Assembly (NCBI GenBank): GCA_002005505.1
Contig: KV908578.1
Location: 168,818 to 232,817 of the forward strand
DNA: 64,000 nt
Direction of reading: 5' to 3'
From: Botryococcus braunii
Lineage: Eukaryota; Chlorophyta; Trebouxiophyceae
Shown: piece after piece, positions 8,328-47,696 of the stretch
Numbering within the stretch: position 1 is the first letter of the stretch
Layout: every line of letters starts with the position of its first letter
The notes under the pieces: generated by a model
Seen by the model: only the letters and a program-made list of their open reading frames with translations
What the model was told of the DNA's origin: nothing
The model's database searches: none
Program-made: the position numbers and the translations under genes

Positions 8328-8373
<46 letters not shown>
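8328..8373. repeat. (CA)n microsatellite
   Basis: About 23 CA units. It abuts the TGTTGTATAAAC start of the R5-type LTR at 8375. Confidence 0.97.
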
Positions 8374-8374
<1 letters not shown>

Positions 8375-8375
<1 letters not shown>

Positions 8376-20218: not shown

Positions 20219-20615
20219 TGTTATATTGGTAAGAGAAATTCGTGCCTTTCCCTCAGGAGCGTAATAGTGGCCAAATCTGCTCAGAACGACAAGCTGGAAC
20301 AATTACGAGAATGAGTACTAGGTGGCAGAACTTAGAAGTTCTGCCAAGGTCAATCTAGACTGATTCCACTTAGATTAGAGAGAATGAGGTAATTTGACAC
20401 GGTTTTGCTAGGAGGATATATGTCGCCGGCTCGCAAGGATGAGGCACTTGATTGGGACTACAAAGGCACTCCGGGTGCTTATCTCTTGACAGTTGCCTAT
20501 CAAGTGTACATACACAGTCGGCCCTGCTTGTTTATCGACACACAACAAGAGTGCCGCCGAGCTAAACACCCTTCGTGACGGGTCATACAGGAAACGCCAA
20601 GCACATAAGTTTACA
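20219..20615 (+). repeat. 3' LTR of E2
   Basis: 397 bp, TGTTATATTGG to AAGTTTACA. It differs from the 5' LTR at about a dozen positions, so the insertion is not recent. Confidence 0.92.
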
Positions 20616-26023: not shown

Positions 26024-26696
26024 GAGGGCTCTCGCCCCCATCTTCCTTTTTCCTTCGGATCAATGTGGCCGATCGTGGAAACAGCGTTGTTTGCCCTTTA
26101 CCTTCGACGAGATCTGAAACGGAAAAGCAATGGATAGGAGATAGTCGATTACATAGATTGTATCGACTTCTTGTTTCTTGATAGCAAGTGAATCTGTCTT
26201 GGCAACTCAGCGCACGGCTGTTGTTTGTCAGGTGGCGGCGACCTGAATTGTCATTACTTCTCGTACGGTTAAGTCACAGATAAACGTGATCAATCTGATT
26301 GTCCGATCTGGATGACGGACTAGGACTTTTGGGGGACCTCGGCCGCTTGATATATCATATTATGGTATGTAAGATGATGTTAAACACTTAAATGTACAGT
26401 ATCTTCCCGCCACAAGATTATGATTGAGCAGAAATTGCGATATCAATGCTTTGTAAATGTCTGATGGTAGCGACTGCGGGTTCTCCGCAGGCTGGGGGAA
26501 GGCCTGGGCCGCGGCCGGTCAGCACAACCGGAAAGGAGCCACGCCAAGAGAGCTGGTCGAAGAACCCACAAACCGCATTAAATCAGAAAGAATACTATCG
26601 TTGCAGTTGCACGAGGTACCAGTTTCCCAGGCCCTGGAAAGTGCACGATTTCTCTGAAACAACAATAATGGAGAAGTGCTGCGCGCACACACATGC

Positions 26697-26950
<254 letters not shown>

Positions 26951-27071
26951 GCGCACGCAAGCTCATGTGCAGAGACGTTTGGAAGCTGGCACTTAAGGCA
27001 GTCAGTACATAGGTAGTAGGCTGCTGCAGCTTTCTTATCACTGCTTTGCTAACCAGTCATGTATTCAAATC

Positions 27072-28112
27072 TTGGCATGTACACCTGCACTAATCTGCGC
27101 CTTCTGGCAGGGGGCCTGGCATCTCTGGGTTGTTTGGGAGTTCTGGAAACTCCGACAATTTGGCGAGTCCTGTCCGAGGCATGCGTTTGAAGAAGTCGTT
27201 CTCATGTGCAGGAGTTACTTGAAAAAGTACGCAAAGAGCAAAGACCTGGGTGAGCTGAAAGCGCTGCCCCATGAGCTGCTAGAGCACGTGTTTCCCGGCT
27301 TGCCACAAGCCACCATCATGGATTTGTCCACCTCCAGCAGGGATTGCCGGGAGGCGGCCCGAAAGGCCATCCCGAGCGTACGGGCAGCGCTGGTGGACTC
27401 TCTCAAGGATGGCTGCAAGTGGGCCACTCCCGCCCAACTGCGCACTATGACCGGCCTAATTGAGCGCTTGAAAGCATGCAGGCACACCAACACAGACCGG
27501 CCGCTGCCGCTTGTGGATCCAGGAAGAAATGGCACGGTCTTCTGTGGCATCGGTCCCGAGGGCAAGGTTTATATCCACAGGAATCCCGACATGTATCGGC
27601 CGGAACTGTGCAAGTACGCACCTACTCCGGTTGCAGGGAGGAGGACGTACCACAAGCTGCTGGGGCCGCAACAACTCACCTTCATCTACGAGGTTGAGTG
27701 GCGCAGTGGAGGGGCAGGAGCGCCAAGTCTTCATTGCTCTTTGGGATTTGATTTGGGCAACCCAGCCTTCCTTGGGTTCGAGCTTGATTTTGATGGCCAG
27801 AGGGTCCTACCAAGATCGCTCATCAGCTTCTGTTCGTTTTGTGAAGATGTGGATTTGCTGCAGGCTTTAGTGCTCAAGTTCTGGCCAATTTGGGGGAGCG
27901 GAGGAGTGTTTCTCACACTTCCAATCAAGTCGCTTCGCGAATGCGCCGCCATCGTCGCTGGGTGTGGTGACATCACCTGGGAGAAGGGCTTGCCAGGGAA
28001 ATGCCACCTTTCGGCTGATTCCTCCAGTATGGAGTCTTCGATTGGCTGGGACTGCTCCAGAATTGTGATTCGGACCTGCCCTTGCCTCATGTCTCGCCGC
28101 CTGCACCGGTGA
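27072..28112 (+). CDS. F-box-like protein, duplicate A
   Basis: Open for 346 codons, but the first codon is TTG. The first in-frame ATG is at 27207 (MCRSYLKKYAK). The true start is therefore either 27207 (301 residues) or an upstream exon. Residues ~62-105 of the open frame (LKALPHELLEHVFPGLP, then TSSRDCREAARKA) have the spacing of an F-box: LP-x-ELL-x2-VF, then a Cys-Arg/Ala-rich helix. F-box proteins recruit substrates to SCF ubiquitin ligases. The C-terminal ~240 residues match nothing I recognise and include GGAGAPSLHCSLGFDLGNP and WPIWGSGGVFLTLPIKS. Copy B keeps the whole frame open with ~25-30 replacements and no indel, which argues for coding capacity. TA-rich promoter signals are not evident. 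The F-box assignment is by pattern only. Confidence 0.5.
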   Translation: MACTPALICAFWQGAWHLWVVWEFWKLRQFGESCPRHAFEEVVLMCRSYLKKYAKSKDLGELKALPHELLEHVFPGLPQATIMDLSTSSRDCREAARKAIPSVRAALVDSLKDGCKWATPAQLRTMTGLIERLKACRHTNTDRPLPLVDPGRNGTVFCGIGPEGKVYIHRNPDMYRPELCKYAPTPVAGRRTYHKLLGPQQLTFIYEVEWRSGGAGAPSLHCSLGFDLGNPAFLGFELDFDGQRVLPRSLISFCSFCEDVDLLQALVLKFWPIWGSGGVFLTLPIKSLRECAAIVAGCGDITWEKGLPGKCHLSADSSSMESSIGWDCSRIVIRTCPCLMSRRLHR

Positions 28113-28181
28113 GCAGGGTCTCAACCATGCAGCAGTCAGATTAAAGTCTCTCTTGATTGCCGCATGTGTAGCTTCCATAGT

Positions 28182-28284
<103 letters not shown>

Positions 28285-28289
28285 TGAGG

Positions 28290-29107
28290 TACTGAGTTCA
28301 TTTCAAAAGCACGGGAAGAAATGCCTAGAAAGAGCCTTGTACTCATCAAGAGCCCGGGAAGGAGTGTGGGCAAGTTGGGCACTTTATCTTTTGCTGGTTT
28401 CCCTTTATATTGAAAGAGAAGTTTCGTGTGATTGGCCCGTTAATGTTAGTATGGCGGATCTACACTTGCTTGTTCTGGGGGAATGGAAGCATCCTTGCGC
28501 AGCCTTTGGCTGCCATGAGGCTGATGGATTGAGCAGTGCTGATCGCTACTGGTCAGGGTTCTGATTGCTTTGTGGGCTCGGCGACTGGTCACATGGCTCC
28601 CACATGCTCTTTAGTACAGGTCATGGTAGGGATTCCAGCCTCTTGGTCCACGGGATTTTCATTGCTTCAACCGGTGGTGTACCCCTAGCCCATGAGGGGT
28701 GGGGTGGGGGATGTGGCCGCCGGGAGCCCATTAAAGCTAATCACGCGTGTGATGCTATGGCTCACATGAGAATACTGATGGGGCAGGGGAATATGCAAAT
28801 ATTTGCAATCATGAAGGTTCAGTTGTCAAGAGACGGAACTTGATGGTGTCGTGTCGGCGAGCCAACATGGGAGCTGTCCTTGTAGATCTATCTGGCTTGG
28901 GCCTGATTCGGGCTTGTATAGAAGTGTCCCAAGAATCCTTCCGCGGCACTGTCTGTCGGCTAGGCGGGTAGGGCGATGATGACAATGCTGGAGGGACAGT
29001 TTGCCTTTGGTACGGGGTCTCGACCAACCTACATCTAGATTGGTGCAGCACTGCAAAGAAACGTACCAGAAGCTTGACATGTAAGGTATTTGCGTATATG
29101 TGTATTG
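28290..29107. other. gene-free part of duplication A
   Basis: No supported coding sequence. It is conserved in copy B (44383-45197) at high identity, with small indels that do not respect a reading frame. Confidence 0.5.
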
Positions 29108-29410
29108 CCTGTGGCTATCGCCGATCAAATTTTTGTGAATTCACCTGTTTTGTATCTAATGTACAGTGTCATTGCACCGCCGTCTTGTAAAACCTTTGTT
29201 AACAACATTGCCATGCCCAGTAAGATGGCGTTTCCCTTCATTGGGTTTCTGCCAGAACCTTGTTCTTTTTGACCATTGCTTGTGAGAGCATCGAGCCACG
29301 CATACTTTTGGTGGCAGAATGCTAAGTGCTCAGCAGCAACGGCGGCAGTTGTAAAATCGAGAGCCCATTGAGGCTTCCTACACGTGCAGTGCAATCTGTT
29401 GGGGGCTTCA
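29108..29410. repeat. dispersed repeat, family C
   Basis: Second copy of the repeat at 23470-23770. In copy B only the first ~205 bp remain because of the 898-bp deletion. Confidence 0.6.
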
Positions 29411-30727
29411 CACATACCCAGCTGTTGGCTTCGATCTTGACACTACACGCCTTTCAACTTTTTGACCAGATGGTCCAACACTGAACGGCAAGAGTGTAGC
29501 AGCTGTCCTATTGTCTTTTGGTGCATAGAATACTTGAGTTAGCGCAGTAGTTGCAGACTAAGCCAAATCAACTGTTTATTTGGGCGATGACTTTTATTAC
29601 AATCACGTGCATGCAGTACTCGATTTCGAGGATAAGACGTCCGGGTAGGAAAGGAAAAGCTTACCTTCAACGTTGGTATCAATGGCATTTTTCTTGTGTT
29701 AAGGAAACCTTCCAAATTAATCGGCAACGATTGCTTTCCATGGGCTTTAGCGGGCCCAAGCTGTGTTATGAGCAGTAGTATTGGAGGAATCAGGTTCAAA
29801 ACGGGTCAACGTTGATGCATAACCCCCCAGATTACGTGATTTCTTACATTGATTTGCAGATAGATTTCTAGATGAATTGCCAGATTGCTTACCAGCAATT
29901 AGCTATAGGGGTTTCAATCACGTAATTGAATTGAAGCCTGCATTCAAGCCTGAGGCTCAGGCCCTGAGCCCGGATAACTCCCGAGACATGCCTACTCCCG
30001 AGGTATGTACTCAAAGCTTGAAAGAGAACATGTGGGATGAATATGAACGCCTTCTAGTAGAATTCTTCGTGCAAACGCGATTTCAAGGAGGGGCTTAAGC
30101 TTATCGAGCATCCACATTCCCCATTTGCAGGCCCATGATTCATTGCAAACAAGAAAGATGGCGACTTGCGCATGGTTAAGCAGCGTTGTGGACTAGCGGC
30201 AGTTGAAGAAAGAAATCATCAACCGTCGGGCACCACTCCCACGGGACCTGCAAGTTTCTTCTCGTCCCTTGGTTCCACTCAGGAGACCACCGAATCGAAT
30301 ATTCGCATCAATGACGAGGATGTCCCAGAAGACTGGACTTTGAAAACCGTTGGGGCAGTACAACTCCAAAGTTTACAAAATTGTGCTGACCAGTGCCCCT
30401 GCCGCATGTCAGACAGTGGTGAACAAGATCTGCACCGAATATGTGAACGGTTTTGTACTCGTCTACATGGATGATATTCTCATATACTCCAAGACCTTTG
30501 GGAAGCAAATTCAGCATATCAGACTCGTGCTTGAATAGGGCATATATGTATATAGAGCGTCAGATATTTGGAACAAGGAGTGAAGCCTTCTTCATATTTG
30601 GCCAGATGAAGACGTGCTCCTCGCTGAAGGAATGGGCATGTGCACTTGGTTGGCCCACACGGCATCAAAAATGATGATTCCTGGATCGAAGCAATTCAAA
30701 AGTGGGCTACACCAACGGATGCGTACG

Positions 30728-30753
30728 AAAAAAAAAAAAAAAAAAAAAAAAAA
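30728..30753 (+). repeat. poly(A) tract inside the Gypsy remnant
   Basis: 26 A residues. Copy B has ~35 at 45917-45951. Confidence 0.95.
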
Positions 30754-30858
30754 CGGAAGTTCATGGATTTGACTAAGTTCTCCAAGAAGCTTGTTCAGGG
30801 GTACACAAAAATAGCAGCACCCGTGAATAGTCTTACCAAGCCGAAACCACCTTTCAAG

Positions 30859-30898
30859 TAATCACCAGAGTGTCGAATATTCGACACTCTGGTGATTA
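30859..30898. repeat. perfect 40-bp palindrome, private to copy A
   Basis: TAATCACCAGAGTGTCGAAT followed by its exact reverse complement. Copy B has only the first arm, at 46057-46076, and then runs straight into GTCCATCAAGGACTTG. In copy A the palindrome is followed by repeated ATGTCCATYAATGTCC-type words before the same AAGGACTTG. Confidence 0.93.
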
Positions 30899-31526
30899 AT
30901 GTCCATCAATGTCCATTAATGTCCAACAAGGACTTGAAGCATGCTATCACTAAAGCATCAGTGCTCTAGGCACCAGATTTTGATAAGCCGTTCACAGTAA
31001 TAAGTGATGCAAGTGGTTTTGGCATGGGTGGCGTATTATTTCAGATTGGACGTCCCCAATGCACATAATAGTAAGAAGTTCACGCCGGCAGAGAGGAACT
31101 ACGGTGCGACAGAACAATAACTTCGAGCAGTGGTCTACAATATGGAAGTATGGCGTCCCTACCGTGAGCGAGCTGAGAAGGTCACCATCATCACAGACCG
31201 CAATCCAAATACGTCTATTCAAGACAAGCAAGTTTTGTCCAGACGGGAAGGTTTGATGGTATAACTTTGGTCACGCTCCCCAATGGAATGGAAGAGTATA
31301 TATGAGCGGAGGCTTACAAACGTTGAGGATCCCTTGAGCAGAGCACCGGCACTATTGCAGGCCATGCGTGTTAACAACGTCGTCATTCAGACAGCATCAT
31401 GATTGTGCAAGTTATTACAGTTTAAATCTAGCCAAGGACTTCGATTTGCAACAATCTTGTAGGAGGAGCCCAGGTCTCCGTCTAGCGAAACTGAAACATC
31501 TTACAGTTGGCTGGTATGTCAGAAGT

Positions 31527-31896
31527 TGAAATATTCTGGGCTTGGCGTATCCTGCATGGTGGCGGCACGGAGGGTGTTAGACGATGTCCTCCTACTTGTG
31601 CGTTGTTAAGTAGGCACGGACATATACAAGTCAAGGACTGGTTAGCAACTGATTGATAGGCACCCGGAGTGCCACTATAGTTCCAACCAAGTGCCTTCCC
31701 TATCCGTGCTTGCCCCATATGCCTCCTTTCTACAAACGTGTCTGTAACTTGCGTTATGATAGTCTTCGTTCAAATGCATGTATTGCCTGGCAGAACTCAG
31801 GGTTCTGCCTCTCTTTCCTAATTGGTATTGTCTTCATACGGAGACTTGCCATTATTACTCCTCTGAGGGAAAGGCATAAAATTAATTAACACAACA
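31527..31896 (-). repeat. 3' LTR of E3 (370 bp, short form)
   Basis: On the plus strand it runs TGAAATATTCTGGG to AACACAACA. It contains one 142-bp block (31552-31693). It equals the 5' LTR minus exactly 321 bp (37680-38000, or an equivalent register, because the flanking blocks are identical). Confidence 0.95.
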
Positions 31897-31914: not shown

Positions 31915-34900
31915 TCACAGAAACTTGGCCAGTCCCAGTGAGTTACGATGTCCCAGAAACACTTGTCTAACTAGTGGTTTGGTAAAAATGTCAGCCACAT
32001 TTCTAGCAGATTGAATGTACTTGAATTCAACCTGCCCCTTTGCAATAGCTTCACGTGCGAAATGACAGCTAATTGCAATATGCTTTGTGTGTTTGGAGTA
32101 CACCGGATTCCTCAGGTGGTTTATACACCCTTGGTTGTCACAATGAATCTTCACTATCCACGGTAACACTCCAATTTCCTCCAGGAAACCTCTCAGCCAA
32201 TTTGCTTCCTTCACAACAGCACTTGCTGCCATGAATTCAGCCTCCACTGTTGAAGTGGCAACAGCAGATTGCTTTTTACTTCCCCACACTACTGCTCCTC
32301 CAAACACAGTGAGGACAAAGCCAGTGGTAGAGAAGCGATGATCCTGATCACCTCCATAGTCGGCATCCACATAGCCTTCTAGCTCTATCTCCCCCCCTCC
32401 GAGAGTTAGAACCAAATCTCGGGTTCCTTTCAGATACTTCAACACACGGATGGCTTCATTCCAATGTGCTGTGGTGGGAGATATGCGATAACGAGACAAT
32501 ACACCTACTGCCTGAGCTATATCGGGACGTGTGGTGTTGGCTATATACAGAAGAGACCCTACTAACTCACAGTAACGGTGACCTGGAGGTAGTGGACTGC
32601 CAGCACCAATGCTGTCGCTCCCATCTCTCGGTGCAGGCCTTTGGGACATTACGAAATCTTTTGTCATGGGAGTATCAGGTCCCACTGACTCAAGATCCAA
32701 GCCAAATTTCTCTACAAGTGCATCGATTTTAGGGATGCAACTCAGGGTGATCAGCCCTTTATCTCTATCTCTCATCACTTGACATCCCAAGAAATCCTTC
32801 ACTTCCCCAAGATCATGGATGGTGAATTCTTTCTTGAGAAGTCCCTTCACTCTCTCGATTTCTGACATGCCCTTGGAAACTATCAGAAGATCATCAACAT
32901 AGATCAGCACATAGGACTTTCCTCCATCAGTAGAGCATCTCACATACACTCCCGCATCACTCTTGCACACCTCATACCCCATGACTTCAAGTTTGTCATT
33001 CAGGGTTTTGTGCCAGGCACGTGGAGCCTGCTTCAGGCCATACAACGCCTTTCTCAATCGGCACACAATATTCTTATCACCATTCTCAAAGCCAGGAGGT
33101 TGCGTTACATATACTTCCTCCTCGAGCTCACCATTCAGAAAGGCGGTCTTAACGTCCACCTGATGAATTTCACAGCCCTCTCTTGCAGCAACAGCAAGCA
33201 GAGCTCTTCTAGCTCCATAGCTACTAGTAGGAGCAAAGACCTCCATCACATCCACTCCAGGGATTTGTCTGCATCCCTGTGCCACTAATCTGGCCTTGAA
33301 TCTCACAACATTGCCATGTGCATCCATTTTCACTGAAAATATCCAGTGAACTGGAATAACCTTATGTCCACGAGGTCTCGGAACATACTCCATGACCTCA
33401 TGAGTATCTAGAGAATTTTGCTCTTCCTGCATAGCTGCCTTCCAGTATTCCCACTGGGGAGACATCTGTGCTTCTCTCAAATTAGAGGGAACGTGAATTT
33501 TCCCAAATCTGACACCTGTGTGCTTTTCCTCTGAATTGCCTGATTTTCTCTCACTTTGTCCAGAACCCACTACTCTTCCACTGACACTCGCTGAGTTACA
33601 CATCACAGGCTCTCCAGTAGAAGTAGAATGCTCTCTCATAGCACGCTCTCGCTTGGACTCACACTTGGCTTTGCACAAGTTACTCTGCTCATCCCTCACA
33701 TCATCCTCCCATGCACAGGTACCTCTCGGACAGTCTTTGTAATTTGGAATCCCTTCACATTGTCCAGACTTCCGATTCACCTCCTCAGACACACTCTGAC
33801 ATGCCTGCAAGAGTTCAGACTCTTCAGGTCTCTCACAAGCAACATCGGGATATGGCAGAGTGTCTGCATACTTCCCCTGATTTATGTGATCCACATGCCT
33901 CTCAGACCGACTGCATGTCACTGTTGGGAGTGACCTCACATCTCTGACATCACTCTCCCAGGCACAGGTACCTCTCAGTGAGCACTTGTAATTTGGTCTG
34001 TCTCCACAATGTCTGTGCTCCTGATTCACCTCCTCCTCTCGTCCCTTACATGGAGTCAAGGATGCAGATCCTGTCTCCCGCTCACAATCATGTTTGGCTG
34101 GTGCAGAGAAAGCATATGATGCTTCCTCTGACCGGTGGCTGCCACCACAGTCCCGTCCAGGAGTGCTCTGACTGGACGGGTTGCCAGAAGAACTCTGCAT
34201 GGTCACATCTCTTACATTTCTCTCAGTCACTGAACAAGACCCACCCATACTGCTCAGCTCCCCGGGACCATTTGCAGCTTTGCATGTAGCTGCCCCCCTC
34301 ACTGCACTCACATGCAATTCATGCCCCTCATGTGAATCACCCTCTAGCTGCACTTCCCCTGGTCCCTGTGACAGAGAGTCACATTCAGTCAACCCCTCTC
34401 GCTCTCTGCTCTCTCCCTTCTCCTGTGGCAGCAGGAGGTCTTTGGCGGCAGTGCGTTGTTCGTGTCGTTGAGCCCGGGTCAGGCCATCCAATTGGTGGTT
34501 GCGGCAATCAGACCTAGTTGGTCTGAGGACCTCCTGGGCTCGCTCCATCTGCGGTCGAAGGTGGGAGTCCTGTCTCACTCCTCTGGCTAAGTCCTGTACT
34601 GCCTCCAGGGTTTGATCCATCTCCACTGGGTCACACAGTCTTCTGGATTCAGGCTCGGGCTCAGCCTCACTGGGGGGTCCTGTGACAGGCTGTGTGGGGA
34701 GGTTGCTGGAGGCTGGCAGGTACTCAGGCTCACTGTGTGGGTCATCAAGATCTGTCTCAAGGCTGATGTTGGTTGTGCCAGGGGAGGTGCCGGGAAAGAC
34801 TGGGGGAGTGTCACTTGCAGAGGGCTCAGGACACAGAAACTCTGTAGACTGTGTTGAGGAAACGCTCATGCCAACCCGAGAGGCTCCCCTGAGGTGCTCC

Positions 34901-37317
34901 ACGAAAACCACATCTCTGCTCTCCTTCCAGATACCCCCTCCCACATAGATCCGATAGGCTTTGGAGGAGGCTGAGTAACCAGTAAGCATCCCTGGCACAG
35001 TTTTAGGGGAAAACACAGAGCGCTGGACATCAGGAATGTGCACAAAGGCCAAGCAACCCCAGGTACGCAGTGGGGTTACATTTGGTTTGTAGCCAAAAAA
35101 TAATTCTGATGGCGTGCGGTCCCTCCCGGTACTGGGACCCATGTTCAGTAGGGTGCATGCAGTTTCCAGGGCCTCCTTCCACAACGTTGGACTGGCAGCT
35201 GCAAAAGCCAGAAGAGTCCTGGTACGTTCCTTGAGGGTGCGATTGGCTCTTTCAGCCGCTCCATTCTGTTGCGGGGTGTAAGGAGCTGAGGTCTCCAATT
35301 TAGTCCCCTGGGATGCACAAAATTCTTTGAACGTGGCATTCAGAAATTCAGTTCCACGGTCACACCGGACACACTTCACTTTGGTTTTCTTCTGGGTCTG
35401 CCAGTATAGAATGAGGTCCCTCACAGCAGCACTGATGGCATCTTTGGACTTCACAGGCAGGACCGCCTTTAACTGAGATGACTCATCCAAAGCAGTCACC
35501 CAGTAACGTTCACCAGTTACTGCAGCAGGAAAAATGGGGCCCACAGTGTCAATATGTACTCTGTCAAGTGGTTCAACAGCTGGTCTACTGCTTATTCCAA
35601 ATGGAGGCCGAGACGTCTTTCCCTCAATACATGCTTCACAGTAGACTGGACAATTGGAGCAGGGACATAGGGATGTATCAAGTCCCGAGACCAGGTCCTC
35701 ATTGGTTAGGCGCTGCATCCATGTTTCACCTGGATGTCCCATTCTGCTATGCCAGAGGTATCGTCTGGCACAGTTGTGTGAGTTTTGGGTGGGGGTTTTG
35801 GACTTCACAGCAGCTGAAATTCTTCTGTGGTTAACACTGGGACTCAGAGCTACAACTTGATGAATATAAAATAGCCCTTTCTCTGCACTGATCCGAGACC
35901 TCCAGCTGTTTGGACCACAGACTTCAGTGAACGCTCCAACATCATCTGTGCGAAAGACTGCCCCATCCCGCAATGCTGCAGATACTGACAGTATGTTTGA
36001 GGTTGCAGAAGGAACACACTGAACATGATGTATCCACAGGGGAACTCCCACTCGACTGAGGATGCAGACAGAGCCTGATGCTACAATTCCTCCAGTGGCA
36101 TCTGAAGTGGCCAGATGTAATGGGATGGGTTTGGCATGCACAGTTGGATTATGTAGTAGGGTCACATCATTCACCAGATGTACAGATGCTCCACTGTCCA
36201 CCAGCCAGGATTGCAGAGACGAATTTCTGACAGGAGTCTTCAGGATGTTGAGGGAAATTATGTATGGCATACCTCCAGGTGGTGGAGGTGGGGGAGCTGG
36301 GGGTTGGAACCATGCCGGAAAGGCATCCAGTCCAGGGTGCGCCAGCTGGGCTGCAGGAGGGTGTGGGCCACCCATATGTGGAGGTCCCTGTGGCCACATT
36401 CCCTGCAATTGTTGGACCGCTGCCACTACGTTCCGTTGGGTCTCCTCGTCCCGCTTCCTCTTTCGACAGTCCCTCCAGTAATGCCCCTTCTTATTGCAGT
36501 AGTTGCAGATGCCCTTAGTCTCGGACTTGGCCTCAGAGACAGTTGGTTGGGCCTGCTGATGGACTGCACTGGCAGCTGGTGGGGTATTGGCTCCACTGGA
36601 GCCTTGTCCAAGAGCCAAAACCCTTGGTTGGCGAGGAGCATATTCATCAAAACCCACTGCAGCTGCTGTGTTGCGCAGAAGTCCAGCCAGCTTCTCCAGG
36701 GGTTGTGCTGCAGCAGTTGTGATCATTCCTGGCTCTTTAGCTGCATCAGGCAAGCCCTGCACAATCTGGGTTGCAACGTGTGCATCCAGTAGAGCATGGT
36801 TGTTCCTGTCAAGGCATGCCTTCAGGTTGATCATTCTGTTGACATATTGCGAAATCGTCTCGTCATGTTTCATTCCCTGGCTCATTTCTTGGAGCCAATC
36901 TGCATTGGCCTCGATATTATATCCACCAATAAACTTTCTGCAGATGAACTCATATGCATCATAAGCAGAGGGCAGATTAGACAGAGGTCCCAGCCATTCC
37001 TCTGGGACTGACTCATAAATCAGTAACATTGCGGCTGCGTCATGTGCTGTACCAGGCATAGCCTCCAGGATGGCAGGCAAAGACCCTTTTGACTCATTTG
37101 CTGCCAAAAATGCATTCTTCCAAACAATAATATTTGTCCCCCGTTCCTTCAGTTTTATGTGTACCTTGACATTTGTTGGGATAATCTTGGGCAGCTCATC
37201 TCCGCTGCCTCTTGAGGTGCTGGGAGTACACGGTTCTCTGATGGGTGTGGATGAGGCTGGTTCACTGCTTGACGTTGATGCTCCACTAGCTGATGATCCT
37301 TTCTTCTTGGAAGTCAT
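31915..37317 (-). CDS. E3 Gag-Pol polyprotein (Copia)
   Basis: 1800 residues from ATG at 37317. Gag ~1-270, then CCHC knuckle CNYCNKKGHYWRDC (271-284) and a Pro-rich linker. Protease: SWLVDSGASVHLVND (D ~374). Pre-integrase: LWHSRMGHPGETWMQRL and CPVYCEACIEGKTSRPP. Integrase DDE: HIDTVGPIFPAAV, RCDRGTEFLNATF, NGAAERANRTLKER. A ~400-residue charged linker follows, with two copies of the motif EEVN...C...PNYK...[58 protein letters not shown] (~1470). RNase H: VDADYGGDQDHRFSTTGF, VATSTVEAEFMAAS, HCDNQGCINHLRN, ending NVADIFTKPLVRQ. Every catalytic motif is intact and gag and pol share one frame, as is usual for many Copia elements. It is probably processed by its own protease. The element looks potentially autonomous. 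Confidence 0.96.
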   Translation of the reverse strand: MTSKKKGSSASGASTSSSEPASSTPIREPCTPSTSRGSGDELPKIIPTNVKVHIKLKERGTNIIVWKNAFLAANESKGSLPAILEAMPGTAHDAAAMLLIYESVPEEWLGPLSNLPSAYDAYEFICRKFIGGYNIEANADWLQEMSQGMKHDETISQYVNRMINLKACLDRNNHALLDAHVATQIVQGLPDAAKEPGMITTAAAQPLEKLAGLLRNTAAAVGFDEYAPRQPRVLALGQGSSGANTPPAASAVHQQAQPTVSEAKSETKGICNYCNKKGHYWRDCRKRKRDEETQRNVVAAVQQLQGMWPQGPPHMGGPHPPAAQLAHPGLDAFPAWFQPPAPPPPPPGGMPYIISLNILKTPVRNSSLQSWLVDSGASVHLVNDVTLLHNPTVHAKPIPLHLATSDATGGIVASGSVCILSRVGVPLWIHHVQCVPSATSNILSVSAALRDGAVFRTDDVGAFTEVCGPNSWRSRISAEKGLFYIHQVVALSPSVNHRRISAAVKSKTPTQNSHNCARRYLWHSRMGHPGETWMQRLTNEDLVSGLDTSLCPCSNCPVYCEACIEGKTSRPPFGISSRPAVEPLDRVHIDTVGPIFPAAVTGERYWVTALDESSQLKAVLPVKSKDAISAAVRDLILYWQTQKKTKVKCVRCDRGTEFLNATFKEFCASQGTKLETSAPYTPQQNGAAERANRTLKERTRTLLAFAAASPTLWKEALETACTLLNMGPSTGRDRTPSELFFGYKPNVTPLRTWGCLAFVHIPDVQRSVFSPKTVPGMLTGYSASSKAYRIYVGGGIWKESRDVVFVEHLRGASRVGMSVSSTQSTEFLCPEPSASDTPPVFPGTSPGTTNISLETDLDDPHSEPEYLPASSNLPTQPVTGPPSEAEPEPESRRLCDPVEMDQTLEAVQDLARGVRQDSHLRPQMERAQEVLRPTRSDCRNHQLDGLTRAQRHEQRTAAKDLLLPQEKGESREREGLTECDSLSQGPGEVQLEGDSHEGHELHVSAVRGAATCKAANGPGELSSMGGSCSVTERNVRDVTMQSSSGNPSSQSTPGRDCGGSHRSEEASYAFSAPAKHDCERETGSASLTPCKGREEEVNQEHRHCGDRPNYKCSLRGTCAWESDVRDVRSLPTVTCSRSERHVDHINQGKYADTLPYPDVACERPEESELLQACQSVSEEVNRKSGQCEGIPNYKDCPRGTCAWEDDVRDEQSNLCKAKCESKRERAMREHSTSTGEPVMCNSASVSGRVVGSGQSERKSGNSEEKHTGVRFGKIHVPSNLREAQMSPQWEYWKAAMQEEQNSLDTHEVMEYVPRPRGHKVIPVHWIFSVKMDAHGNVVRFKARLVAQGCRQIPGVDVMEVFAPTSSYGARRALLAVAAREGCEIHQVDVKTAFLNGELEEEVYVTQPPGFENGDKNIVCRLRKALYGLKQAPRAWHKTLNDKLEVMGYEVCKSDAGVYVRCSTDGGKSYVLIYVDDLLIVSKGMSEIERVKGLLKKEFTIHDLGEVKDFLGCQVMRDRDKGLITLSCIPKIDALVEKFGLDLESVGPDTPMTKDFVMSQRPAPRDGSDSIGAGSPLPPGHRYCELVGSLLYIANTTRPDIAQAVGVLSRYRISPTTAHWNEAIRVLKYLKGTRDLVLTLGGGEIELEGYVDADYGGDQDHRFSTTGFVLTVFGGAVVWGSKKQSAVATSTVEAEFMAASAVVKEANWLRGFLEEIGVLPWIVKIHCDNQGCINHLRNPVYSKHTKHIAISCHFAREAIAKGQVEFKYIQSARNVADIFTKPLVRQVFLGHRNSLGLAKFL

Positions 37318-37654: not shown

Positions 37655-38345
37655 TGAAATATTCTGGGCTTGGCGTATCCTGCATGGTGGCGGCACGGAG
37701 GGTGTTAGACGATGTCCTCCTACTTGTGCGTTGTTAAGTAGGCACGGACATATACAAGTCAAGGACTGGTTAGCAACTGATTGATAGGCACCCGGAGTGC
37801 CACTATAGTTCCAACCAAGTGTTACAATATCTCTCATCTCTCCTAACAAGGTGACGCAGTTCAAACACGCCTAACCTGCTCTCACCCAGGTCGTGTTCAT
37901 TACTTTGTCCGATGAGCTAAACTCAACTCTATATGTCTAACATGTTCTAACAATGTTCATCTGAGTGCTAAATCCAGGAATACAATAAGGATTAAGTCAC
38001 CTGCATGGTGGCGGCACGGAGGGTGTTAGACGATGTCCTCCTACTTGTGCGTTGTTAAGTAGGCACGGACATATACAAGTCAAGGACTGGTTAGCAACTG
38101 ATTGATAGGCACCCGGAGTGCCACTATAGTTCCAACCAAGTGCCTTCCCTATCCGTGCTTGCCCCATATGCCTCCTTTCTACAAACGTGTCTGTAACTTG
38201 CGTTATGATAGTCTTCGTTCAAATGCATGTATTGCCTGGCAGAACTCAGGGTTCTGCCTCTCTTTCCTAATTGGTATTGTCTTCATACGGAGACTTGCCA
38301 TTATTACTCCTCTGAGGGAAAGGCATAAAATTAATTAACACAACA
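37655..38345 (-). repeat. 5' LTR of E3 (691 bp, long form)
   Basis: Contains two identical 142-bp blocks (38001-38142, first in transcription order, and 37680-37821), separated by a 179-bp spacer. A CATATG motif lies ~27 nt before the first block (CACTTGG), the likely transcription start. The U5-like end is GATACGCCAAGCCC. Confidence 0.93.
37680..38000 (-). other. predicted LTR intron of E3 (spacer plus block 2) with internal poly(A) signal
   Basis: On the minus strand block 1 ends ACCATGCAG|GTGACT. The segment contains TTGTAA (TTACA on the plus strand, 37822-37826) immediately before block 2, and ends GTCTAACACCC...CCATGCAG| before GATACGCC. CTAAC is a good branch-site match ~26 nt before the AG. 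Precise removal yields exactly the 3' LTR form. The solo LTR has the same layout at 55128-55451. Confidence 0.65.
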
Positions 38346-39357: not shown

Positions 39358-39867
39358 GCAGCAAGCGGTGGGCCCAGCGCCTTTGTAGTGTATTGGTTGG
39401 AGGATGCCGTAACTCTCAGCGGTACGTTTGCATGTTGATTGTCATTTCCTGTGAACACCACCAAGTAATATCAATGTATATATAGACCAGTGCTCGCACT
39501 GCCGTCTATATCTGCCGACTGCTCTCTGATCAGGGCGCCCTTGGCCCTCAGCAGTCCCAGGAGTTTGACGGCTACTCCCAACCGATCGCTATTAACCAGT
39601 GTGTAACTCTCAACACACAAATAGCCTTACTGTTCTTCCAACAGTAACAAACAAGCAATGCAACTCCTGTATTGCAATGAGTGAGATAGCCGTTTATCAA
39701 GCAGTCATTCAATACAGAGCAAACACTTATCAGCTTGGAGCTCGAACCTAGATGTATTCCACATCCAATCGACTCATTACAATGGTTTATGTATATTTAC
39801 CTGTGAACACCACCAAGTAATATCAATGTATATATAGACCAGTGCTCGCACTGCCGTCTATATCTGC

Positions 39868-39978
39868 CTGCAACCCGAGCATTACGTCTTTACTGGTGGG
39901 TCATCAGTGTCCTCTAAATATATCTAAACCACAGCACACACACACACACACACTAACTATCCACATATGTGTACGTAC
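39868..39978 (-). other. intron 3 of R5 LTR
   Basis: AGTCG|GTACGT ... GGGTTGCAG|GCAGAT, 111 bp, containing a short (CA)n. The spliced copy joins the exons exactly at 39515/39516. Confidence 0.88.
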
Positions 39979-40049
39979 CGACTGCTCTCTGATCAGGGCG
40001 CCCTTGGCCCTCAGCAGTCCCAGGAGTTTGACGGCTACTCCCAACCGAT

Positions 40050-40135
40050 CTGCACAATACGTGGTTCACTAGGGATCTTAACAAAACAGTTATTCAACTA
40101 GCAGGAGCATGCTTGTTATGCGTATCTGTACTCAC
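40050..40135 (-). other. intron 2 of R5 LTR
   Basis: TAGCG|GTGAGT ... ATTGTGCAG|ATCGG, 86 bp. It is absent from the spliced copy (junction 39586/39587). The GTGAGT donor is conserved at 9131 in the other R5 LTR. Confidence 0.9.
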
Positions 40136-40214
40136 CGCTATTAACCAGTGTGAAACTCTCAACACACAAATAGCCTTACTGTTCTTCCACAGTAACAAAC
40201 AAGCAATGCAACTC

Positions 40215-40336
40215 CTGCAACACAAGCACATGTATTACTTCATTATCAACAATGATAACAGCAAGCATGCGCCTAAACCCTGAGATCGCAGCCACCCGGC
40301 TGCGACCGTTACCCTTACCATCGATCGCAAGCTAAC
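40215..40336 (-). other. intron 1 of R5 LTR
   Basis: ATACAG|GTTAGC ... TGTGTTGCAG|GAGTTG, 122 bp. It is absent from the spliced copy (junction 39666/39667). The matching intron at 8910-9051 keeps GT-AG. Confidence 0.9.
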
Positions 40337-40895
40337 CTGTATTGCAATGAGTGAGATAGTCGTTTATCAAGCAGTCATTCAATACAGAGCAAACACTTAT
40401 CAGCTTGGAGCTCGAACCTAGATGTATTCCACATCCAATCGACTGCCAAGCTCGCTCGCGATCTGGCGTTTCTATGCTTCCTGATCGTAACCGGCGGTAA
40501 CAGTACAGTTCCGTTTGAGAAGCCGTACCGTACTGCAGGGCCACATAAACAACCCTGACTTGGCCCTATGCCAACGTGTAGCTCTGCAGCTGCACCATGG
40601 ATCCTAAACTTATACACGTGTACACACTCAATGGAGTCTTTACCTTGTGACCACACCGTCACTAGTACAAGACCTGTACTGCATGGAGGTCACTATATGA
40701 TCAACCTGACTGATCACCATACATTACCCTAGATACGCAATCAGGCGCATCTTCTTCCTTGTACTCCACACGTGGAGAAGTTCAAGTTATACAATGTTTC
40801 CTAAAACCACTTGATAAACTGACAGTGCCCTTGCATCTATGTACGTTTGCCGTCATGTATCTATACGTACCTATGATATATCAGTTTATACAACA

Positions 40896-42100: not shown

Positions 42101-42890
42101 TGGTTTCCCGGGTATTCCTTATTAGTCATGCTGGGGGAGGGAAATAGGTCACACCCATGGGTCACACTGCCGGGAGTGTCGGGGTGGGAGTTTAGGGCTC
42201 TCGCCCCCATCTTCCTTTTTCCTTCGGATCAATGTGCCCCGATCTTCCTTTTTCCTTCGGATCAATGTGGCCGATCGTGGAAACAGCGTTGTTTGTCCAT
42301 TACCTTCGGCAAGATCTGAAACGGCAAAGCAGTAAATAGGACATAGTCGATTACATGCCGATTGTATCGACTTCTTGTTTCTTGATAGCAAGTGAATCTG
42401 TCTTGGCAACTCAGCGCACGGCTGTTGTTGGTCAGGTGGCGGCGACCTGAATCGCCATTACTTCTCGTACGGTTAAGTCACAGATAAACGTGATCAATCT
42501 GGTTGTCCGATCTGGATGACGGACTAGGACTTTGGGGGGGACCTCGGCCGCTTGATATATCATATTATGGTATGTAAGATGGTGTTGAACACTGAAATGT
42601 ACAGCATCTTCCCGCGACAAGATTATGAATGAGCAGAATTTGCAATGTCAATGCTTTGTAAATGTCTGATATTAGCGTCCGCGGGTTCTCCGCAGGCTGG
42701 GGGAAGGCCTGTGCCGCAGCCAGGCAGCACAACCGGAAAGGAGCCACGCCAAGGGAGCTGGTCGAAGAACCCACAAACCGCATTAAATCAGAAAGAATAC
42801 TTTCGTTGCAGTTGTACGAGGTACCAGTTGCCCAGGCCCTGGAAAATGCACGATTTCTCTGAAACAACAATAATGGAGACAAGTGCTGCT

Positions 42891-43045
<155 letters not shown>

Positions 43046-43164
43046 TCACACAAGCTTTTGTGCAGAGACGTTTGGAAGCTGGCACTTAAGGCAGTCAGTC
43101 CATAGGTAGTAGGCTGCTGCAGCTTTCTTATCACTGCTTTGCTAACCAGTCATGTATTCAAATC

Positions 43165-44205
43165 TTGGCATGTACACCTGCACTAATCTGCGCCTTCTGG
43201 CAGGGGGCCTGGCATCTCTGGGTTGTTTGGGAGTTCTGGAAACTCCGACAATTTGGCGAGTCCTGTGCGAGGCATGCGTTTGAAGAAGTCGTTCTCATGT
43301 GCAGGAGTTACTTAAAGAAGTACGCAAAGAGCACAGACCTGGGTGAGCTGAAAGCGCTGCCCCATGAGCTGCTAGAGCACGTGTTTCCCGGCTTGCCACA
43401 AGCCACGATCATGGAGCTGTCCACCTCCAGCAGGGATTGCCGGGAGGCGGCCCGGAAGGCCATCCCGCGCGTACGGGCAGCGCTGGTGGACTCTCTCAAG
43501 GATGGCTGCAAGTGGGCCACTCCCGCACAACTGCGCACTATGACCAGTCTAGTTGAGCGCTTGAAAGCATGCAGGCACATCAACACAGACCAGCCGCTGC
43601 CGCTCGTGGGTCCGGGAAGAAATGGCGCGGTCTTCTGTGGCATCGGTCCCAAGGGCAAGGTTTATATCCACAGGAATCCCGACATGTATCGGCCGGAACT
43701 GTGCAAGTACGCACCGACTCCGGTTGCAGGGAAGAGGACGTACCACAAGCTGCTGGGGCCGCAACAACTCACCTTCACGTACGAGGTTGAGAGGCGCAGT
43801 GGAGGTGCAGGAGCGCCAAGTCTTCATTGCTCTTTGGGATTTGATTTGGGCAACCCAGCCTACCTTCGGTTCGACCTTGATTTTGATGGCGGGAGGGTCC
43901 TACCAAGATCGCTCATCAGCTCCTGTTCGTTTTGTGACGATGTGGATTTGCTCCAGGCTTTAGTGCTCAAGTTCTGGCCAATTTGGGGGAGCGGAGGAGT
44001 GTTTCTCACACTTCCAATCAAGTCGCCTCGCGAGTGCGCCGCCATCATCGCTGGGTGTGGTGACATCACCTGGGAGAAGGGCTTGCCAGGGGAACGCCAC
44101 CTTTCGGCTGATACCTCCAGTATGGAGTCTTCGACTGGCTGGGACTGCTCCAGAATTGTGATTTGGACCTGCCCTTGCCTCATGTCTCGCCGCCTGCACC
44201 GGTGA
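43165..44205 (+). CDS. F-box-like protein, duplicate B
   Basis: Same 346-codon open frame as 27072-28112, again with a TTG first codon; the first in-frame ATG is at 43300. The F-box-like segment LKALPHELLEHVFPGLP is unchanged. About 25-30 residues differ in total, spread over the whole length, and no indel breaks the frame. Several replacements are non-conservative (W to R, L to P, R to W), which suggests relaxed constraint in one or both copies. Whether either is expressed cannot be told from sequence. Confidence 0.48.
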   Translation: MACTPALICAFWQGAWHLWVVWEFWKLRQFGESCARHAFEEVVLMCRSYLKKYAKSTDLGELKALPHELLEHVFPGLPQATIMELSTSSRDCREAARKAIPRVRAALVDSLKDGCKWATPAQLRTMTSLVERLKACRHINTDQPLPLVGPGRNGAVFCGIGPKGKVYIHRNPDMYRPELCKYAPTPVAGKRTYHKLLGPQQLTFTYEVERRSGGAGAPSLHCSLGFDLGNPAYLRFDLDFDGGRVLPRSLISSCSFCDDVDLLQALVLKFWPIWGSGGVFLTLPIKSPRECAAIIAGCGDITWEKGLPGERHLSADTSSMESSTGWDCSRIVIWTCPCLMSRRLHR

Positions 44206-44277
44206 GCAGGGTCTCAACCATGCAGCAGTCAGATTGAAGTCTCTCTTGATTGCCGCATGTGTAGCTTCCATAGGGCA

Positions 44278-44293
44278 CGTGTGTTTGTTTGTT

Positions 44294-44374
<81 letters not shown>
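44278..44374. repeat. (GTTT)n(GT)n microsatellite
   Basis: Orthologue of the (GT)n tract at 28185-28281. Confidence 0.95.
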
Positions 44375-44379
<5 letters not shown>

Positions 44380-45407
44380 ACTGAGTTCATTTCAAAAGCA
44401 CGGGAAGAAATGCCTAGAAAGAGCCTTGTACTCATCAAGAGCCCGGGAAGGAGTGTGGGCAAGTTGGGCACTTTATCTTTTGCTAGTTTCCCTTTATATC
44501 GAAAGAGAAGTTTCGTGTGATTGGCCCGTCAATATTAGTATGGCGGATCTACACTTGCTTGTTCTGGGGGAATGGAAGCATCCTTGCGCAGCCTTTGGCT
44601 GCCGTGAATGCTGATGGATTGAGCAGTGCTGATCGCTACTGGTCAGGGTTCTGATTGCTTTGTGGGCTCGGCGACTGGTCACATGGCTCCCACACGCTCT
44701 TTAGTACACGTCATGGTAGAGATTCCAGCCTCTTGGTCCACGGGATTTTCATTGCTTCAACCGGTGGTGTACCCCTAGCCCATGAGGGGTGGGGTGGGGG
44801 ATGTGGCCGCCGGGAGCCCATTAAAGCTAATCACGCGTGTGATGCTATGGCTCACATGAGAATACTGATGGGGCAGGGGAAAATGCAAATATTTGCAATC
44901 ATGAAGGTTCAGTTGTCAAGAGATGGAACTTGATGGTGTCGTGTCGGCGAGCCAACATGGGAGCTGTCCTTGTAGATCTATCTGGCTCGGGCCTGATTCG
45001 GGCTTGTATATAAGTGTCCAAAGAATCCTTCCGCGGCACTGTCTGTCGGCTAGGCGGGTAGGGCGATGATGACAATGTTGGACAGTTAACCTTTGGTACG
45101 GGGTCTCGACCAACCTACATCTAGATTGGTGCAGCACTGCAAAGAAACGTACCAGAAGCTTGACATGTAAGGTATTTGCGTATATGTGTATTGCATGTGG
45201 CTATCGCCGATCAAATTTTTGCGAATTCACCTGGTTTGTAGCTAATGTACAGTGTCATTGCACCGCCGTCTTGTAAAACCTTTGTTAACAACATTGCCAT
45301 GCCCAGTAAGATGGCGTTTCCCTTCATTGGGTTTCTGCCAGAACCTTGTTCTTTTCGGCCATTGCTTGTGAGAGCATCGAGCCACGCATACTTTTGGTGG
45401 CATTATC

Positions 45408-45915
45408 ATCAACCAGCGGGCACCACTCCCACGGGACGTGCAAGTTTCTTCTCGTCCCTTGGTTCCACTCAGGTGACCACCAGATTAATCGAATATTCGC
45501 ATCAATGACGAGGATGTCCCAGAAGACAGGATTTTGGAAACCGTTGGGGCAGTACAACTCCAAAGTTTACTAAATTGTGCTGACCAGTGCCCCCGCCGCA
45601 TGTCAGACAGTAGTGAACAAGATCTGCACAGAATATGTGAACGGTTTTGTACTCGTCTACATGGATGATATTCTCATATACTCCAAGACCTTTGGGGAGC
45701 AAATTCAGCATATCAGACTCGTGCTTGAATAGCGCATAGAGCGTCAGATATTTTGAACAAGGAGTGAAGTCTTCTTCATATTTGGCCAGATGAAGACGTG
45801 CTCCTCGCTGAAGGAATGGGCATGTGCACTTGGTTGGCCCACAAGGCATCAAAAATGATGAGTCCCGGATCGAAGCAATTCAAAAGTGGGCTACACCAAC
45901 GGATGCATACCAAAA

Positions 45916-45952
<37 letters not shown>

Positions 45953-46520
45953 GGAAGTTCATGGATTTGACTAAGTTCTCCAAGAAGCTTGTTCAGGGGT
46001 ACACAAAAATAGCAGCACCCATGAATAATCTTACCAAGCCGAAACCACCTCTCAAGTAATCACCAGAGTGTCGAATGTCCATCAAGGACTTGAAGCATGC
46101 CATCACTGAAGCATCAGTGCTCTAGGCACCAGATTTTGATAAGCCGTTCACAGTAATAAGTGATGCAAGTGGTTTTGGCATGGGTGGCGTATTATTTCAG
46201 ATTGGACGTCCCCAATGCACATAATAGTAAGAAGTTCACGCCGGCAGAGGGGAACTACGGTGCGACAGAACAATAACTTCGAGCAGTGGTCTACAATATG
46301 GAAGTATGGCGTCCCTACCGTGAGCGAGCTGAGAAGGTCACCATCATCACAGACCGCAATCCAAATACGTCTATTCAAGACAAGCAAGTTTTGTCCAGAC
46401 GGGCAGGTTTGATGGTATAATTTTGGTCACGCTCCCAAGTGGAATGGAAGAGTATATAAGAGCGGAGGCTTACAAACGTTGAGGATCCCTTGAGCAGAGC
46501 ACCGGCACTATTGCAGGCCA
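45408..46520 (+). pseudogene. Ty3/Gypsy RT-RNase H remnant, copy B
   Basis: Same order as copy A from the YMDD box (FVLVYMDDILIYSK at ~45645-45690) to DPLSRAPALLQ. The N-terminal RT part was removed by the 898-bp deletion. The poly(A) tract lies at 45917-45951. Confidence 0.83.
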
Positions 46521-46670
46521 TGCGTGTTAACAACGTCGTCATTCAGACAGCATCATGATTGTGCAATTTATTACAGTTTAAATCTAGCCAAGGACTTCGA
46601 TTTGCAACAATCTTGTAGGAGGAGCCCAGGTCTCCGTCTAGCGAAACTGAAACATCTTACAGTTGGCTGG

Positions 46671-47696
46671 TTTTATAGAATGGCACGGTCCAGCGTCAAT
46701 CTACACACATTTCAGACACCCTGTGACATAATGCAATCATTAGCAATGCTCACAGAAGACAGTATGGACAGCCCTTATCCTCTCGAAGGGCTTCACAGAC
46801 TGGAGTTCGTCACGTATGAACTTTTACAATGTATGTGTGTTATGATGTGACTCACTAAGCTAAGCAAAACATAAGGGATACCTGTGACATAATGCAATCA
46901 TTAGCAATGCTCACAGAAGACAGTATGGACAGCCCTTATCCTCTCGAAGGGCTTCACAGACTGGAGTTCGTCACGTATGAACTGACCAATCTCACTGCCT
47001 TCATCCCTTTAAATACTACGGAAGGCTGACATCATTGCCTCCTCTGCATTTGCTAGTCTTTGTCACTATTAACACTACGGAGAGTTGATCTGCGGCTCCG
47101 TACTATGCGTGAATTCGTAGAACCGTACACTCATCGTTCAGTCCTACCGGATTCTTCACGAACTCGACCCGAAAATATCTTAGACCGTCTAAACGACAAG
47201 ATCTATCCGCAAAAGCTTCGATCCAGAACCTCGGAGCCGACCGTACGCTCCGTGAAATGACTCGATGAGAAGATATTTACTCCGTGAACCCGTTCGGATC
47301 TCGATCTGATCACCGAGTTAGTTCCTGAGACCTTTAAACCACTCGGAGTTGGTGCATTTACGTCTAACTTACTCGAATCTCACGATAAGAACCGTAATTG
47401 CACCCCGGAACTTCTACTGTAAGTCCGTACCACCCTGTACACTCCAGGATAAAGTCTGCAGGCCCTTTAACTTTATTCAAATGTCATGAGTAAGTCTCAA
47501 ATGTCCTTTATCAGTCAATATACTTGCACATTTATTCTATACACCAAGTATATCAACGTGTCATGCAGTACACCTGTACCTTATGCAGCTGTACCTTATT
47601 TGGACTCTTCAAACATGCAGACAAATGTAGGGGACTCTCATCAGATGTGAAGTGAAATTTTTCCCAAGTACAGCTGATGATCCCCATTTTATAACA
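46671..47696 (-). repeat. 3' LTR of E4
   Basis: 1026 bp, TTTTATAGAATGG to CCCCATTTTATAACA on the plus strand. It contains two identical 102-bp blocks (46721-46822 and 46882-46983) around a 59-bp spacer. Confidence 0.95.
46721..46881 (-). other. predicted LTR intron of E4 (spacer plus block 2)
   Basis: On the minus strand block 1 ends ATGTCACAG|GTATCC. The spacer ends ACATTGTAAA (TTACA at 46824-46828) just before block 2, and block 2 ends ATGTCACAG|GGTGTC, with GCTAATGA as a possible branch site. The same structure is at 53907-54067 in the 5' LTR. Confidence 0.6.

Follow-up and report, generated by a model that had tools for sequence, protein, structure and literature searches.

The analyzed DNA, termed the window throughout, is a stretch of 64,000 nucleotides (nt) from the green alga Botryococcus braunii (contig KV908578.1). 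It contains the retrotransposable elements E1, E3, E4, and E5 and the solo long terminal repeats (LTRs) S15 and S55. By their domains, E3 and E4 are Ty1/copia elements; E5 is placed with them by the similarity of its polymerase, S55 and E1 by the likeness of their LTRs or bodies to E3, and S15 is read as an LTR alone. In the E3 protein, Pfam detected rve at residues 581-681 and RVT_2 at residues 1306-1550. In E4, rve was found in the first frame and RVT_2 in the next, and a copia-type gag domain scored above the cut-off in E4 and below it in E3. The genome that was searched for further copies comprises 176 Mb in 989 contigs, and the fetched LTR copies carry L-numbers. All readings rest on the DNA sequence, from which the RNA start sites, the poly(A) sites, and the removal of the last intron are inferred.

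The LTRs of E3, E4, S55, S15, relatives of E1, and E5 have a common order, namely, U3, block 1, a spacer that starts with GT and ends with TGTAA, block 2 with a terminal CAG, and U5. A preliminary description had noticed this block-spacer-block plan in E3, S55, and E4; it was borne out, and the coordinates were right (Table 1). For E3, however, the plan applies to the 5′ LTR and not to the 3′ LTR, which has one block and no spacer. The block lengths of 142 and 102 nt given earlier are read here as 143 and 103 nt, a difference that depends on how the shared G following CAG is treated. The two 143-nt blocks of S55 are identical, and its spacer ends with TTGTAATAG. S15, which was absent from the preliminary description, has blocks that are 97.9% alike over 142 columns and a spacer of 341 nt.

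One example LTR from each of six families (E3, E4, S55, S15, an E1-type copy, and E5) was inspected for signals. In transcription order, block 1 ended with CAG followed by GT and block 2 with CAG followed by G in all six, including E3, E4, and S55. TGTAA was situated 1-3 nt ahead of block 2 in 6/6 families. It was the sole TGTAA of the LTR in four of them; S55 and S15 have another one within the first 11 bases. A self-comparison of the window (E 1e-10) revealed no mutual match of at least 60 nt between the LTRs of S15, E3/S55, E4, and E5.

Table 1. Positions of the LTRs and their parts in the window
Feature	Position	Strand	Description
E1 5′ LTR	13041-13437	+	one block; relatives with two blocks occur elsewhere in the genome
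S15 solo LTR inside E1	14881-15682	+	repeats 15051-15192 and 15534-15674; spacer end TTTGTAAG; target-site duplication AGCAG
E1 3′ LTR	20219-20615	+	single-block form
E3 3′ LTR	31527-31896	-	single-block form, without spacer
E3 open frame	31915-37317	-	single, 1800 aa, Ty1/copia: RVT_2, rve, gag_pre-integrs; Retrotran_gag_2 below cut-off
E3 5′ LTR, whole	37655-38345	-	691 nt, TG...CA ends
E3 5′ LTR U3	38143-38345	-	begins TGTTGTG; CATATG 29 nt ahead of block 1
E3 5′ LTR block 1	38000-38142	-	proposed first exon; end GCAG, then GTGACTT
E3 5′ LTR spacer	37822-37999	-	178 nt; first part of proposed intron; end ATTGTAA
E3 5′ LTR block 2	37679-37821	-	same as block 1 at 143/143 positions; proposed 3′ portion of intron; end GCAG, then GATACG
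E3 5′ LTR U5	37655-37678	-	24 nt; then tRNA-like primer site (judged by eye)
E5 block 1	39801-40444	-	exons 40337-40444, 40136-40214, 39979-40049, 39801-39867
E5 intron 1	40215-40336	-	122 nt, GTTAGC...TTGCAG; missing in block 2
E5 intron 2	40050-40135	-	86 nt, GTGAGT...GTGCAG; missing in block 2
E5 intron 3	39868-39978	-	111 nt, GTACGT...TTGCAG; missing in block 2
E5 spacer	39775-39800	-	26 nt; GTAAAT directly after CACAG; contains CATTGTAATG
E5 block 2	39449-39774	-	exons 1-4 joined; end CACAG, then G
E4 3′ LTR	46671-47696	-	block 1 46881-46983, spacer 46823-46880, block 2 46720-46822
E4 5′ LTR, whole	53857-54885	-	103-nt blocks identical, spacer 58 nt
E4 5′ LTR block 1	54067-54169	-	TATTTAAA starts 32 nt upstream
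E4 5′ LTR spacer	54009-54066	-	end TTGTAAA
E4 5′ LTR block 2	53906-54008	-	identical to block 1
S55 solo LTR (ends approximate)	55101-55798	-	block 1 55451-55593, spacer 55270-55450, block 2 55127-55269

The most informative LTR of the window is a further two-block LTR that is absent from the preliminary description. It belongs to E5, the copy of which is incomplete, and extends from 39440 to 40895 on the minus strand. Its block 1 contains three introns, all of which are missing in block 2. The terminal CACAG of block 1 is followed by GTAAATATACATAAACCATTGTAATG and then by block 2, which differs from the joined exons of block 1 at 2 of 325 positions and by one gap. Twelve further copies, which share 87-97% identity with the window copy across the query, were fetched (12 of 40 scored, out of 210 candidates), and in 13 of 13 LTRs the three introns were present in block 1 and none was present in block 2. 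The introns had GT...AG ends in 37 of 39 cases. All three exon joins were found in block 2 of 12 LTRs with 0-2 mismatches per 12 bases, and L124, an LTR with a deletion, retains one of the three. The last donor was GT in 12/13 LTRs and the end of block 2 was CAG in 13/13. The exons of the two blocks of one LTR differed at 0-10 of 308-328 aligned bases, compared with 6-30 differences between the copies and the window copy. For L131 and L132, the values were 0/327 between their own blocks and 28/323 versus the window copy.

A search with block 2 plus spacer as the query yielded one nearly whole match at each of 40 loci (40 scored of 201 candidates), and the fragments below each whole match were individual block 1 exons. 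The matches were listed in the order of their E-values, with truncation of the list affecting short fragments only, and none of these loci had a second whole match as an intron-free block 1 would give. As none of the 13 LTRs has any of the block 1 introns in its block 2, this block has to be regarded as copied from spliced RNA. Judged from the sequences, block 2 of E5 is a DNA copy of the spliced leader. A spliced copy that recurs at a constant place in all LTRs read and tracks the sequence changes of its unspliced partner can hardly have any other origin than reverse transcription of a spliced leader.

Next, the sequence differences between the two blocks were quantified for four families. 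The mean difference was 0.34% within an LTR versus 1.17% between LTRs for S55 (29 LTRs), 1.25% versus 10.5% for E4 (36 LTRs), 2.5% versus 9.6% for the E1 family (27 LTRs), and 1.4% versus 8.0% for E5 (12 LTRs). Four rows had been left out, i.e., L068 (contig end), L073 (degenerate repeat), L036 (without block 2), and L099 (second block outside the fetched piece), and L075 was left out of the E4 statistics. When the blocks were randomly re-paired among LTRs, 0 of 20,000 re-pairings were as close in each of the four families (for E5 without L132, the twin of L131), showing that the identity within an LTR is not due to chance. The own block 2 was the closest block 2, ties allowed, in 24/29 LTRs of S55, 29/36 of E4, 18/27 of E1, and 10/12 of E5. 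The earlier claim that the blocks are alike within an LTR yet diverged between LTRs, and hence homogenised, was thus confirmed by the alignment of many copies. Blocks diverging as freely as the spacer would have spoken against it. Between subfamilies, block divergence indeed reached about 28% and was about equal to that of the spacer or higher, but both blocks changed together. As the blocks co-vary, a simple old duplication was excluded.

The distribution of individual variants was also informative. For variants found in at least two LTRs, the carriers had the variant in both blocks in 20/20 cases for S55, 306/331 for E4, 219/279 for E1, and 162/170 for E5. The S55 variants 37T, 75T, 92A, and 113A, which occur on at least two contigs, were present in both blocks of all carriers. 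In contrast, variants of single LTRs were mostly confined to one block (S55 14/15, E4 28/35, E1 47/64, E5 52/74), and each difference between the S55 blocks was private to one LTR. The presence of shared variants in both blocks and of private ones mostly in one block shows that copying takes place within the replication cycle and mostly not afterwards. One pair, L060/L064, which by place and flanks are the two LTRs of one element, has a common change in block 1 that is missing in block 2; this represents a lag of one cycle, as the proposed renewal of block 2 predicts when the LTRs of the parent differ. For 13 LTR pairs matched by place and flank (including L048/L049, which is not a clean 5′/3′ pair), the divergence was 23/4822 between the 5′ and 3′ LTRs and 8/3157 between blocks 1 and 2, values that are of the same order and too small for a fine comparison. 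L118/L119 had been considered as a young element with unequal blocks, but both flanks are the same and the pair is a duplicated insertion.

Further footprints were found at the joints of the LTR parts. Changes per column were counted on a tree of the E4 group with 37 rows, which was built without the column of the TGTAA-block 2 joint (L075 and L072 were left out of the count). The base between TGTAA and block 2 had changed 8 times, the highest value of 535 columns (mean 0.79), and the five columns of TGTAA had changed 0-1 times each. The joint base varies among the copies of the E1 relatives and of E5 too. In L109, L122, and L080, 3-5 letters of the end of U3 seem to precede block 2, as if transcription had started slightly upstream. 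The next highest values of the E4 group were observed within U5, where three adjoining columns about 5-8 nt from the LTR end had 7, 7, and 5 changes.

One lineage of the E4 group has exchanged its U5. The blocks of L053 are near those of L066, L067, L069, and L070 (1-3/103 differences; block 2 1-2/103), whereas its U5 is identical to that of L039 (0/49) and differs from those of the former four at 7-8 of 48 positions, from the first U5 base on. L039 and L053 have 75 differences in the 620 nt ahead of U5, the last one at -5, and none in the following 900 nt, placing the lineage switch no more than 5 nt from the proposed splice junction. The L053 lineage could have arisen by splicing of one lineage's leader to the U5 of a different lineage, a result that the proposed mechanism, set out below, gives, although this is a single event. 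For L052 versus L056, with 72 differences before and 9 after, the switch is less tightly bounded. In L039, L052, L053, and L056, each of two kinds of a U3-block cassette occurs with each of two kinds of gag-side sequence, giving all four combinations and indicating that the cassette reassorts. In these four LTRs, the blocks and the nearby U3 differ more than the distal U3.

The start of transcription was placed at the A of block 1 (in E3, the repeat takes in the base before that A). This A follows a pyrimidine in 6/6 families. A TATA-like motif is located at -29 to -32 from block 1 in three of the six families, and none was found ahead of block 2 in any of the six. A start at block 2 was rejected on this ground and because it would leave the blocks unhomogenised. 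A CTNAY branch-like motif is situated about 23-29 nt ahead of the block end in E3, E4, S55, and block 1 of S15. The blocks also contain short inverted repeats, identified by eye (GGCACTCCGGGTGCC in E3, at 31551-31693 and 38000-38142), which are partly kept in S55 and E1 and might form a structure in the leader RNA.

LTRs with a single block were analyzed in the E1 family, using 38 fetched LTRs plus the window's own two (of 804 candidates, 40 were scored). Of these, 27 had two blocks, 12 had one, and one was not judgeable. The single-block LTRs were scattered in the LTR tree, requiring 9 changes, a value that was as low in 76 of 500 label shuffles, with most branches of the tree being weakly supported. 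At one open fork, three single-block rows stand beside one two-block row. The sole identical single-block pair, L089/L090, has both flanks in common and thus represents one duplicated insertion. On account of this scatter, the single-block LTRs look like repeated losses rather than a spreading lineage. E3 combines a two-block 5′ LTR with a one-block 3′ LTR, yet the target duplication ACTTC at both sides shows that it is one insertion. Its unequal LTRs could be due to a block-to-block deletion or to slippage during plus-strand copying.

These observations suggest the following replication cycle. Transcription of the Ty1/copia element would start at the first base of block 1. In the RNA of the 5′ LTR, block 1 would be spliced to U5, and the spacer with the TGTAA signal would be removed together with block 2 as one intron; in E5, three further introns of block 1 are removed, as is evident from the DNA of block 2. 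It is plausible, and there is a precedent in foamy virus (PMC3694450), that the location of TGTAA in an intron enables the 5′ LTR to avoid premature polyadenylation. In the 3′ LTR, the transcript would stop shortly after TGTAA and so include no more than the first few bases of block 2. Reverse transcription of the spliced leader would first yield a cDNA of block 1 plus U5, which may then move to the 3′ end of the RNA, pair with the few bases of block 2, and be extended over the spacer, block 1, and U3. The 5′ leader would supply the new LTR with block 2 and U5, and the 3′ end of the RNA would supply it with U3, block 1, and the spacer. Each jump would thus renew block 2 from the spliced form of block 1; the copying itself is visible in the DNA, and the route of strand transfer is the proposed part. 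An LTR that loses the intron would be left with one block, would lack that TGTAA, and is probably a dead end. We regard it as highly likely that, as a whole, this mechanism operates in these LTRs, with the cDNA of the spliced leader rebuilding block 2 at each jump. The preliminary description, which had put forward the start in block 1, the splicing, and the rebuilding, was very probably right.

Three other explanations were considered. The blocks might be ordinary direct repeats that are homogenised in the chromosome by gene conversion or unequal exchange, without an involvement of RNA. It is generally known that close direct repeats can convert one another, and exchange would yield single-block LTRs, which do occur. 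However, conversion cannot account for three introns that are present in one block and absent in the other in 13/13 E5 LTRs, and private mutations mostly stay in one block while shared ones are in both, so that this explanation is extremely improbable. Another possibility is that transcription starts in block 1 without subsequent splicing, and that reverse transcriptase jumps from block 2 to block 1 and skips the spacer in the first cDNA. Reverse transcriptases frequently jump between direct repeats, and such jumps would also give a cDNA of block 1 plus U5, but the removal of the E5 introns would be left unaccounted for. Jumps within the blocks predict patchwork blocks, whereas the switch of the L053 lineage falls in the last 5 nt, and unspliced cDNA at the start of block 2 predicts three-block LTRs, none of which was seen among the examined copies, all of which had been picked with two-block queries. 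This route is thus very unlikely. About equally unlikely is that copying of the spliced leader is true for E5, but that the last step differs in E3, E4, S55, S15, and the E1 relatives, e.g., by partial splicing or only occasional renewal of block 2. The internal introns that prove splicing indeed occur only in E5, and the last intron is deduced in every family. Nevertheless, the same signals are present in the same order in the six examples, and the shared variants of S55 were found in both blocks of 20/20 carriers.

Several results weigh against the proposed renewal of block 2 by spliced-leader cDNA. Some variants of more than one LTR are present in one block only (25 carriers for E4, 60 for E1, and 8 for E5); they are partly explained by duplicated insertions (L061/L062/L065 with a common flank and L118/L119) or recurrent hits. 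A splice signal has been lost in some E5 copies (the last donor in L123; L127, L130). The three introns persist in block 1 of E5, and the 3′ LTR must therefore somehow escape the splicing of the 5′ LTR. Three of the six families have no evident TATA box, and the list of motifs, including CATATG, was picked after the sequences had been viewed. The CTNAY pattern was not found in E5, the E1-type copy, and block 2 of S15. Retrocopies polyadenylated just within block 2 numbered 0 (reversed-pattern control: 10 forward, 1 reverse). The reading of TGTAA as the poly(A) signal follows from its role in green algae. Lastly, a deletion between direct repeats accounts equally well for the single-block LTRs.

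The elements resemble standard Ty1/copia elements (Pseudoviridae-type) in the TG...CA ends and 5-bp target duplications of E3 and S15 and in a stretch resembling a primer site next to U5 in E3 and E4; by eye, E4 has no clear target duplication and no CA end. They differ in that a standard LTR has one U3-R-U5, whereas here an R-like block is doubled around a GT...AG spacer and the second block is a spliced copy. A single U3-R-U5 was not found in the examples of the six families but is present in the single-block E1 LTRs and the 3′ LTR of E3. Relatives of the E3 polymerase in Micractinium, Tetradesmus, and Haematococcus are 37-46% identical, and those of land plants such as Lolium come close. 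The nearest relatives, with 93% identity and less, are on environmental contigs. One of them, P0001, is an E3-like polyprotein that is 93% identical over the reverse transcriptase part and is encoded on a public contig of 6.4 kb, which could show a spliced leader if it were derived from a transcript. Two pattern matches to E3 relatives were obtained in viral contigs, and none was confirmed.

Comparisons were also made with other systems. In DIRS elements, an internal copy of the terminal sequence restores the ends; they use a tyrosine recombinase and are not known to involve splicing. In contrast, E3 and E4 carry rve integrase domains, and this assignment was rejected as no recombinase domain is listed for E3 and E4 (E5 is judged by similarity only). 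Penelope-like elements belong to a different enzyme family, with a Penelope-type reverse transcriptase that some of them combine with a GIY-YIG endonuclease, and this identity was rejected in view of the RVT_2 and rve domains of E3 and E4 (Pfam). They nevertheless have repeats at their termini, and their introns survive retrotransposition; for the intron-containing copies, the authors, in the parts consulted, prefer an antisense template while leaving room for an unspliced one (PMC3846280). Unlike in that account, the RNA would here be spliced at one end and the intron be restored by the repeat structure. In the LTR of foamy virus, the major splice donor is located upstream of the poly(A) signal, and binding of U1 suppresses premature polyadenylation in the 5′ LTR, according to the sections consulted (PMC3694450). 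By sequence, a putative splice donor within the LTR (CAG|GT) is here followed by a putative poly(A) signal (TGTAA) in 6/6 families, but the consulted portion of the foamy virus description contains no duplicated block, no removal of the poly(A) signal with an intron, and no rebuilding by reverse transcription (PMC3694450). The lentiviral 'LTR1' vectors were dismissed as a parallel, as their design is different (PMC5542766). Searches of the open literature by phrases and terms listed no paper on an LTR-internal intron that is restored anew in every cycle, which does not prove that none exists.

Additional repeats were observed in the window and elsewhere in the genome. An E5-like LTR fragment with an intron-bearing block 1 is located at 8373-9130 on the plus strand; it is about 76% identical to E5 and apparently truncated by other sequence. 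A stretch of 4.4-5.5 kb is present twice (26034-31515 and 42236-46671; pieces 92-98% identical), with its ends coinciding with E3 and E4 or lying close to them. Regularly spaced LTRs were found on two contigs (G000 C735 4726-16404; C468 35032-42684), with the E5 type recurring about every 5.66 kb and three LTRs of the S55 type being 3,478 bases apart with equal flanks. Both probably represent tandem arrays.

Taken together, the scheme is an unusual variant of the replication of Ty1/copia elements, and it is new. An element with two identical LTRs faces the problem that its poly(A) signal must be read at one end and ignored at the other. If the proposed cycle is true, the signal sits in a sequence that acts as an intron at the 5′ end alone and is restored by reverse transcription, which would be a natural case of an intron surviving retrotransposition via spliced RNA. 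E5 would then be a genomic record of splicing and of start sites that can be read from DNA. The dating and annotation of LTRs would change as well, with the blocks serving as an additional clock within every LTR and the single-block forms marking failed cycles. The polymerases of the copia lineages that have the scheme in common are only 40-55% identical by blastp (E5-E3 55%, E5-E4 42%, E3-E4 40%), which argues for an old and general solution in this alga. The life cycle of these LTR retrotransposons thus probably depends on the spliceosome. Half of the LTR would be renewed at each jump as cDNA of the spliced leader, and the intron that hides the poly(A) signal would be regenerated by the very reverse transcription that it enables, as this alga's answer to the problem of two identical LTRs that have different jobs.
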